Of a stretch of 64,000 nt of DNA, positions 18,549 through 20,359 are shown one piece after another. Origin of the DNA: Lignipirellula cremea. GTDB taxonomy: Bacteria > Planctomycetota > Planctomycetia > Pirellulales > Pirellulaceae. The notes below the pieces were generated by a model, which worked only from the letters and a program-made list of their open reading frames with translations, was not told where the DNA came from and did no database searches. The translations under genes were made by a program, and so were the position numbers. Position 1 is the stretch's first letter, and each line of letters starts with the position of its first letter. The DNA lies in contig NZ_CP036433.1 in assembly GCF_007751035.1 (NCBI RefSeq), forward strand, positions 2,709,001 through 2,773,000, given 5' to 3'.

Positions 18549-20003
18549 ATGCTTCGACGATCAATTTCGCTGGCCGTGCTCGCTTTGGCGGCTTTTGCCG
18601 CGGCGGGGAATGCCTCTGAACCGACTCCTGCTTCCGCTGCCGCTGGGGGGGAACACACGGTCGTAGTCTCTCTCCGCTGGGCCAGCCAGCCGGAATCTAA
18701 CGGATTCAGTCTCAACGTCCTGCCGGGTCTGGCGATTGGAGTCCATTTCCAGCAGGAAGCGACCCCAACCGAGGCGTCGCCCGCAACCGTGGTCCCGGTG
18801 GCCTGGGAACAGATTGTTCCGGCGCCGGAGCCGGCTTCGAAGTTGGCGATCTTCACCGAAAAAAGCGACGACAAGGACTGCACTTTCTCGGTGCTGTTCC
18901 CTAACTGCTGCGGCAACCTGTCGGCTTCGCCTGCCTGCCAGACCTGCCAGGCAGGCAACGGTCCGCCGACCGCCTGCCAGCAGGAATGTGCGAAAACGCA
19001 TGGCCCAGGCGTCCTGGCGGCCAACGCTCTGGTGGGCGAACCGCAACTGGCCGAGGCTGGCGTCGCCAAACTCAAAATCGGGGAGGGTTCGTTATGCGAG
19101 CTGCCGGCCGGTTTCACCGCCCAGCCGTTTCAGTTCCGGATGATCGCCGTGGGCGGCCCCGGGGGGGAATGCAGCGCCTCGTGTAATGCGGCTGGTTGCT
19201 CGACGGGTTGCGCGACCGGAACCTGCAAACCGTCCAGCGGCTCCGTTTGCCAGGCGGCCAGCAGCCAGTGCGCTTCTGGCGATTGTGCTTGCCAGGTTTC
19301 CAAGCCGAATGTCGCCTGTGGCGTGGCGCATGCGATTTGCCAGAAAGGCGAGTGCCAGAGCAGCCAGTGCGAATCGAGCCCGACCATCACGCTTGACTGG
19401 TCGGTCGTCGAATCGGCGGCCTCCATCGGCCCGGTATGTCAGAGCTGCAACTCTACGGGAAGCTGCGGCCTGGCCGGTCACGTCAGCAGTGCGACCACCT
19501 GCACCCTGGCGAAAACCGCCTGCTCCTGCGGCGACAAGTGTGCCTGCGGCGAGAGTTGCAAATGCGGCGACAGTTGCAAATGCGGCGACAAATGTGCTTG
19601 CGGGGACAAATGTGCTTGCGGGGACAAATGTGCTTGCGGGGACAAATGTGCTTGCGGGGACAAATGTGCTTGCGGCTCCGGTACGTCGGATCGGCTGACG
19701 GCCCTGCAGCAGGAGAATGCGGAACTGGTGCAGCAGATCCAGCTGGCCCGACAGAAAGAACAGCACTTCGCCGAAATCCTGGAGCTGCGGGTGGAGAACG
19801 CCCGGCTGGCGGCCCAGCAAGAAACGCTGCATGCTCGGATGGAACTCTTTGGCGAAGTGTTCGAGATCGCCCAGGATAAAGCCCGGCTGGAAGCGAAACT
19901 GGAATCGCTCCACGAACGAGAAACCCTGCGTGAGAAACTGGTCGAACTGCAGTCGCAGGTTCACGAACTGACGGCCCGCACCCAGGCTGAGACACGACGC
20001 TAA
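18549..20003 (+). CDS. Exported cysteine-rich protein with metallothionein-like CxCGDK repeats and a coiled coil
   Basis: I do not recognise a described family. The 484-residue protein has a signal peptide (SISLAVLALAAFAAAGNAS) and a proline/alanine-rich N-domain. A long cysteine-rich zone follows with many CxxC and CxC pairs (residues about 110-320). At 325-375 there are more than eight consecutive 6-residue units of the form C-x-C-G-(D/E)-(K/S). The C-terminal 100 residues form a heptad-rich coiled coil (TALQQENAELVQQIQLARQ onward). Dense CxC spacing suggests metal binding like metallothionein, but in an exported, oligomerising protein. The start has AAGGGA 9 bases upstream; the longer upstream frame is not used. 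The perfect hairpin at 20033-20064 may end the transcript. Confidence 0.75.
   Translation: MLRRSISLAVLALAAFAAAGNASEPTPASAAAGGEHTVVVSLRWASQPESNGFSLNVLPGLAIGVHFQQEATPTEASPATVVPVAWEQIVPAPEPASKLAIFTEKSDDKDCTFSVLFPNCCGNLSASPACQTCQAGNGPPTACQQECAKTHGPGVLAANALVGEPQLAEAGVAKLKIGEGSLCELPAGFTAQPFQFRMIAVGGPGGECSASCNAAGCSTGCATGTCKPSSGSVCQAASSQCASGDCACQVSKPNVACGVAHAICQKGECQSSQCESSPTITLDWSVVESAASIGPVCQSCNSTGSCGLAGHVSSATTCTLAKTACSCGDKCACGESCKCGDSCKCGDKCACGDKCACGDKCACGDKCACGDKCACGSGTSDRLTALQQENAELVQQIQLARQKEQHFAEILELRVENARLAAQQETLHARMELFGEVFEIAQDKARLEAKLESLHERETLREKLVELQSQVHELTARTQAETRR
19521..19676 (+). repeat. 18-bp tandem repeat encoding CxCGDK
   Basis: Four identical 18-base units TGTGCTTGCGGGGACAAA occupy 19593-19664, followed by a partial unit. 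Four diverged units precede them from 19521. Each unit encodes six residues (CACGDK). The exact identity of the last copies points to recent expansion by slippage or unequal crossing-over. Confidence 0.95.
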
Positions 20004-20359
20004 CCGCGTTTGGTCATTCACTTGCTTTCGCTAACGGCGAGTTTTCCGCGGAAAACTCGCCGTTGCTCGTTTCTGGCCGGCCAGCGCCCTGGCTGGCTGC
20101 TGTTGTCCGGAACGATGTCCTTGATGACGGGATTTTGCCAGCCCCCGGGGTTACGCTTTTAGCGGCCGCGCCTACACTGGTGCGCACGCGTGGCCCCATC
20201 CACCTGATTGCGACCTGAGTCGCGTCCTGGTGGCGGTAGTCAAGCCGATCAGAACAGGCGTCCCTGCATTGGGGGTGCGGCCGGCTCGGCCTTTTGACGA
20301 CTTCGGCGTGGAGCTCTACATTAGGGAGCAGTTGAGTTATTCTGCGCAAGGATCCGACA
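20004..20359. other. Intergenic region upstream of the STAS gene
   Basis: This 356-base spacer begins with the perfect 32-bp palindrome at 20033-20064, then a GC-rich inverted segment (GGCCAGCGCCCTGGCTGGC). The remainder shows no gene-like frame. A promoter for the STAS gene should lie in its second half, but I cannot identify one with confidence. Confidence 0.55.
20033..20064. repeat. 32-bp perfect palindrome / hairpin
   Basis: The arm AACGGCGAGTTTTCCG is followed immediately by its exact reverse complement, giving a 32-base palindrome with no spacer, 30 bases after the stop of the cysteine-rich gene. It could act as a terminator stem, although no T-run follows on the + strand, or as a binding or recombination site. 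Confidence 0.9.

Follow-up and report, generated by a model that had tools for sequence, protein, structure and literature searches.

Is the exported-looking, cysteine-rich protein encoded at positions 18549..20003 (+) of the window, the 64,000-nucleotide stretch of the Lignipirellula cremea genome analyzed here, a store for metal, or does it play some other part in the envelope? A preliminary description read it as an exported, metallothionein-like repeat protein with a coiled coil, and the boundaries given there are exact: the ATG lies at 18549, the stop codon ends at 20003, and the product is 484 aa long. The open reading frame is a real gene with a coding-like GC3 (0.713, compared to 0.708–0.806 for six neighbors), which is why we prefer it over the long antisense frame created by the repeat (GC3 of 0.600). 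The host genome is one contig of 9,565,229 bases, and the surrounding genes encode a PQQ/BamB-like protein with a laminin-G domain, a prenyltransferase-toroid protein and a STAS protein, as well as an epimerase, an AP-endonuclease-like TIM barrel and an FAD oxidase. No metal genes were found among the neighbors scanned at this locus and at the loci of relatives. Just 3′ of the stop codon is a terminator-like inverted repeat with a 15-pair stem (20032..20065, +), by far the longest of the four terminator-like sites that a terminator scan found in the region (shuffle mean of 2.7). Rfam and tRNA searches of the window gave no result, and a plasmid search gave no match to the gene.

The N-terminus (MLRRSISLAVLALAAFAAAGNA, followed by SE) resembles a Sec signal peptide when judged by eye, with residues 1–22 (18549..18614, +) as the probable signal peptide, a site between GNA and S, and a helix at residues 2–19 in the AlphaFold2 model; the signal peptide proposed earlier is thus apparent. 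Because the first cysteine is residue 111, the protein is not a lipoprotein. Of its 43 cysteines (9% of residues), 25 precede the array described below, 18 lie within it, and none lie in the helix. The broad cysteine-rich zone of the preliminary description is likewise present, as an irregular stretch with 25 cysteines from residue 111 to about 320 (18879..19502, +) that the AlphaFold2 model predicts to be mostly disordered. It is followed by nine CxCG hexads at residues 325–378 (19521..19682, +), recognized from tandem-repeat, pattern and composition counts: these 54 residues are 33% cysteine and include no aromatic residue or histidine. The motif CxCGxxC occurs eight times, compared to a shuffle mean of 0.026, and 0/2000 shuffled proteins reach eight. 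The earlier count of more than eight CxC-G-D-K units is therefore loosely true, as there are nine CxCG hexads, but only 6/9 are strictly CxCGDK, with the remaining three ending in GES, GDS and GSG. At the DNA level, the array consists of 8.3 tandem copies of an 18-bp unit, with 87% matches, in which the first four units differ in their codons but retain the cysteines and the glycine after each CxC, while four later units are identical 18-bp copies that, judging from the sequence, are a recent expansion produced by slippage. The rest of the protein is a long C-terminal helix at residues 378–483 (106 residues; 19680..19997, +), defined by the AlphaFold2 model and by profile matches. In this model, computed from an eight-row alignment, it is a single helix with pLDDT near 90 over most of its length, whereas the remainder is of low confidence and mostly disordered (mean pLDDT of 50.4 and pTM of 0.27 for the whole model); a Foldseek search of PDB folds with the model matched no chain. 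Self-comparison and periodicity resolve three helical repeats of 27 residues (consensus unit VENARLEARLEAAEEREELLERLAELA) at residues 388–414 (19710..19790, +), 415–441 (19791..19871, +) and 442–468 (19872..19952, +).

A homology search for this architecture, as had been suggested in the preliminary description, reveals that the gene is no orphan. An initial search located the helix in genomes G031 and G004, and then in G014 with G031 as query, at single-sequence E-values of 1e-5 to 4e-5 (no profile). A four-row helix profile, run against 199 genomes of the same taxonomic family with a threshold of E 1e-3, matches in 13 of them, with the window gene (itself in the seed) at E 4.5e-39. All of these matches were read: 12/13 genomes, which represent 7/68 sampled genera, encode the same plan of an exported-type, cysteine-rich protein ending in helical repeats, while the match in G020 is not a member. 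The 11 complete members begin with a signal-peptide-like segment; in the twelfth, from G071, the contig ends within the gene and the N-terminus is missing. When up to nine best candidates per genome were scored, at least 6/396 genomes of the order sample match at E 1e-6, all within the same family, and the own genome is the only one of 392 in the phylum sample among the matches listed (E 1e-5). Members G092 and G106 are not among the order-sample matches listed, and further members were possibly missed. With so patchy a distribution, the family does not belong to the core components of the wall.

Eight members (own, G031, G004, G014, G100, G106, G064 and G092) were scanned with the Pfam and NCBIfam models, none of which scores above its cut-off, and the open PMC literature, mostly at listing level, yielded no description of metallothioneins in planctomycetes or of this cysteine-rich helical family. 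We conclude that the family is real, lineage-restricted, and undescribed in the libraries and literature searched. Abundant paralogues aside, the window shares no neighbors with the fetched loci of relatives. In G031, G100 and, in broken form, G092, the upstream genes include a DUF1501/PSCyt pair, an adjacency that we take as chance, as each of eight genomes searched has 27–61 DUF1501-protein matches and the neighboring copy in G100 is not its best match. Four further loci (L007, L009, L015 and L016) were read and left out of the member count. Array matches in G011, G008, G036 and locus L002 of the own genome proved to be frames of other repeats, some with internal stops; at L002 (C1, about 3469346–3469495), the strand opposite the coding sequence of a DRTNIG repeat protein imitates a CxCG array, which is a trap for pattern searches. 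Another candidate, L033, has no cysteine and proved to be an unrelated coiled-coil protein. The N-terminal parts of L028 and L034 contain stretches such as VVEARI, LPYVSKLFES and LPQLVNLFGS, which we take to resemble secretin motifs; L028 has no Pfam secretin match.

Comparison of eight members indicates that repeats of 27 residues make up the helix. A lag of 27 gives the top self-match in 7/8 helices, the exception being G092, where lags of 58 and 54 rank above it. Among 1000 heptad-preserving shuffles (position modulo 7 kept), 0, 0, 1, 1, 0, 0, 0 and 0 reach the lag-27 score in the own protein, G031, G106, G064, G092, G004, G014 and G100, respectively; with any lag from 8 to 55 allowed, the corresponding numbers are 0, 11, 97, 34, 1, 0, 2 and 15. 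The hydrophobic periodicity of 3.5 residues is, by the same order, reached by 563, 440, 29, 21, 154, 794, 882 and 369 of 1000 permutations. It is absent in the window protein, where 563 permutations reach the observed power, and with these counts across the eight members, the helix does not qualify as a coiled coil with consistent heptads. What stands of the C-terminal coiled coil described earlier is the long predicted helix, with a 27-residue repeat in place of the missing heptad periodicity. Since 27 is four heptads minus one residue, a modified coiled coil is possible. The helical units of G158 and G205 are also spaced 27 apart, while those of G140 and G071 are not.

The helix is alignable throughout the family, whereas the cysteine arrays before it change. 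The 12 members have 43 (own), 38 (G031), 20 (G004), 5 (G014), 6 (G100), 16 (G106), 33 (G064), 15 (G092), 14 (G158), 16 (G205), 25 (G140) and 23 (G071) cysteines, and 241/254 of these precede the first helical repeat, a few of them in signal peptides. Even G031 and G106, which belong to the same genus, differ widely (38 vs. 16) with a well conserved helix. The CxCGxxC array is found in 4/12 members (own, G031, G106 and G064), while the others have different arrays or, in G014 and G100, almost no cysteine; by genus, the array types are CxCG, GSCCSEAS, CCEGKVCEAGKC and a spaced C-x4-C. Nevertheless, 10/12 members are cysteine-rich before the helix (13–43 cysteines). A proline-rich linker precedes the helix in several members, though not in the window protein. 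Across these arrays, cysteine content, not one metal-site geometry, seems to be conserved. The reading that we favor, at about even confidence, is that the product is exported and serves as a structural component of the envelope, in which the helix would assemble and an interchangeable cysteine region would cross-link, probably through disulfides. We favor it because a constant helix with changing cysteine arrays would be tolerable for a cross-linker but not for a specific metal cluster.

The foremost alternative, which we consider unlikely, is an exported metal binder: the nine CxCG hexads would act, in the periplasm or beyond it, as a chelator of Cu(I), Zn or Cd that the helix would tether or cluster. 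Metallothioneins are typically cysteine-dense and lack aromatic residues and histidine, as does the array, which shares with them (Metallothio_2, Metallothio_5 and PEC; 6qk5) dense CxC with Gly, Lys, Ser and Asp. Unlike them, the window protein is 484 aa long, apparently exported, equipped with a long helix, and above the cut-off of no metallothionein family. The array alone is matched best by Metallothio_5 among the Pfam metallothionein families (E 0.96; 10.1 bits vs. a cut-off of 25), the whole protein matches no metallothionein profile up to E 10, and the best solved metallothionein match is the Cd-metallothionein 6qk5 (E 0.34), a likeness that may be compositional. With no profile near its cut-off, an unsuitable size, and an array missing from 8/12 members, the protein is, as far as such comparisons tell, not a metallothionein by membership; the earlier claim of a metallothionein-like nature finds no specific support in these results or in the scanned neighbors. 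Furthermore, an oxidizing envelope, as suggested by two VKOR matches over the cut-off in the own genome, would disfavor free thiolates. In favor of metal, members in genera g32 and g65 retain a related cluster, CxCGxxCxCG, and related genomes encode apparently exported proteins of about 200 aa with 58–60 cysteines. Metal binding by the window protein, including a convergent form, is possible.

These short proteins, found at L095, L096 and L097 (also L098 and L066), are apparently exported and have up to 58–60 cysteines in about 200 aa. The repeats of the L095–L097 type, CxCPCGxxCxCGPxCxCPGCxCCK, are far more metallothionein-like than the window protein, and L096 has no Pfam match. This type, from relatives in genus g10, resembles the window protein in its signal-peptide-like start and CxCGxxCxCG units and differs in its length, its cysteine number and the lack of a helix; it is apparently a separate invention.

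It is also conceivable, though improbable in our estimation, that the cysteine arrays are low-complexity sequence that expanded under weak constraint or none and that the helix alone is functional, as a spacer, surface fiber or adhesin stalk. The recent slippage seen in the four identical copies of the 18-bp repeat and the span of cysteine numbers in the family (5 to 43) are consistent with this, as is dN/dS in the cysteine-poor pair G014–G100, the only pair for which it was estimable (289 codons; 0.47 overall, 0.59 before the helix vs. 0.35 in the helix). However, neutrality would not account well for the recurrence of cysteine-richness before the helix in 10/12 members despite unlike arrays, or for older array units that keep their cysteines and common glycine while codons vary. 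Finally, a non-structural role in the periplasm, in which the protein would buffer thiol redox state or serve as a substrate for disulfide exchange, would suit the many closely spaced cysteine pairs and the thioredoxin-like gene (L108, 9332–10504, −) that is convergent with and adjoins the G064 member, but we regard it as very improbable, with no thioredoxin neighbor in the other scanned loci and no catalytic domain in the eight members scanned.

For the favored cross-linking envelope protein, we envision that the signal peptide would take it out of the cytoplasm, that its helix of 27-residue repeats would pair or bundle with its own copies or with a partner, and that the long, flexible cysteine-rich part, densest in the CxCG array, would link adjacent molecules, most likely by disulfides that the oxidative folding system of the cell would form. 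Both VKOR and cysteine-rich YTV proteins are encoded in the own genome, in keeping with this reading. Planctomycetes make peptidoglycan as well as envelope protein. Regarding the latter, the literature describes an SDS-resistant envelope with protein rich in proline and cysteine and stabilized by disulfides (PMC3035269), a protein sacculus with disulfide bonds (PMC2754498), and cell wall preparations that contain cysteine-rich YTV proteins (PMC8567305). Several observations temper this reading, the patchy spread of the family among them. As G014 and G100 hold only 5 and 6 cysteines, cross-linking is not the job of every member; the lack of clear heptads in the helix weakens the oligomerization step; and the absence of a conserved gene neighborhood also speaks against it.

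The YTV proteins offer the closest comparison. The own genome has 17 matches to YTV (PF07639) at 4 places, three of the frames having 75, 45 and 36 cysteines; the window gene is not among these matches, and the eight members scanned have no match to the YTV repeat up to E 10. Like the window protein, YTV proteins are very cysteine-rich, built from repeats and reported only from planctomycetes; they are exported, as the window protein would be according to its N-terminus judged by eye. Some also have a CxCGxxCxC motif near the C-terminus that resembles the window array, such as those of two related genomes (L069 and L102), with CGCGDNCGCGDPC or CGCGNDCGCDAGC. They differ in that the YTV frames read lack a C-terminal 27-residue helical repeat, and in that YTV is widespread while the window family is patchy. 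In Planctopirus, one YTV protein is reported to be essential (PMC10632474). A YTV protein of the own genome (L114, 103–1659, −) carries CGCGYGCGCSH at its end, along with long runs of Gly-Cys-Ser. Further DNA matching the motif of the YTV ends occurs in G188, G214, G208 and G196, as matching DNA alone. The array pattern itself is found as DNA in 63/199 family genomes, but this count is no evidence because many of the matches are simple repeats and a reversed control also matches many genomes.

The preliminary description had offered a metal store or a disulfide- or metal-crosslinked matrix; the matrix fits a plan shared by 12 genomes in 7 genera with swappable arrays and a CxCG motif recurring in YTV proteins, while the metallothionein part is without specific support. 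More broadly, and only tentatively, we suggest a new family in which the helix of 27-residue repeats may be an assembly module for exchangeable cysteine arrays. Such proteins may build a layer next to the YTV wall, cross-linked covalently or by metal, and the gain, loss and replacement of arrays between genera would allow the cross-linker to be tuned. The family also cautions against taking the CxC arrays of exported bacterial proteins for metallothioneins. The family is a case of a cysteine array swapped on a constant helical carrier, and since the cystine-rich planctomycete envelope is poorly resolved beyond the YTV proteins, a family defined by such a signature provides testable candidates for its cross-linking.
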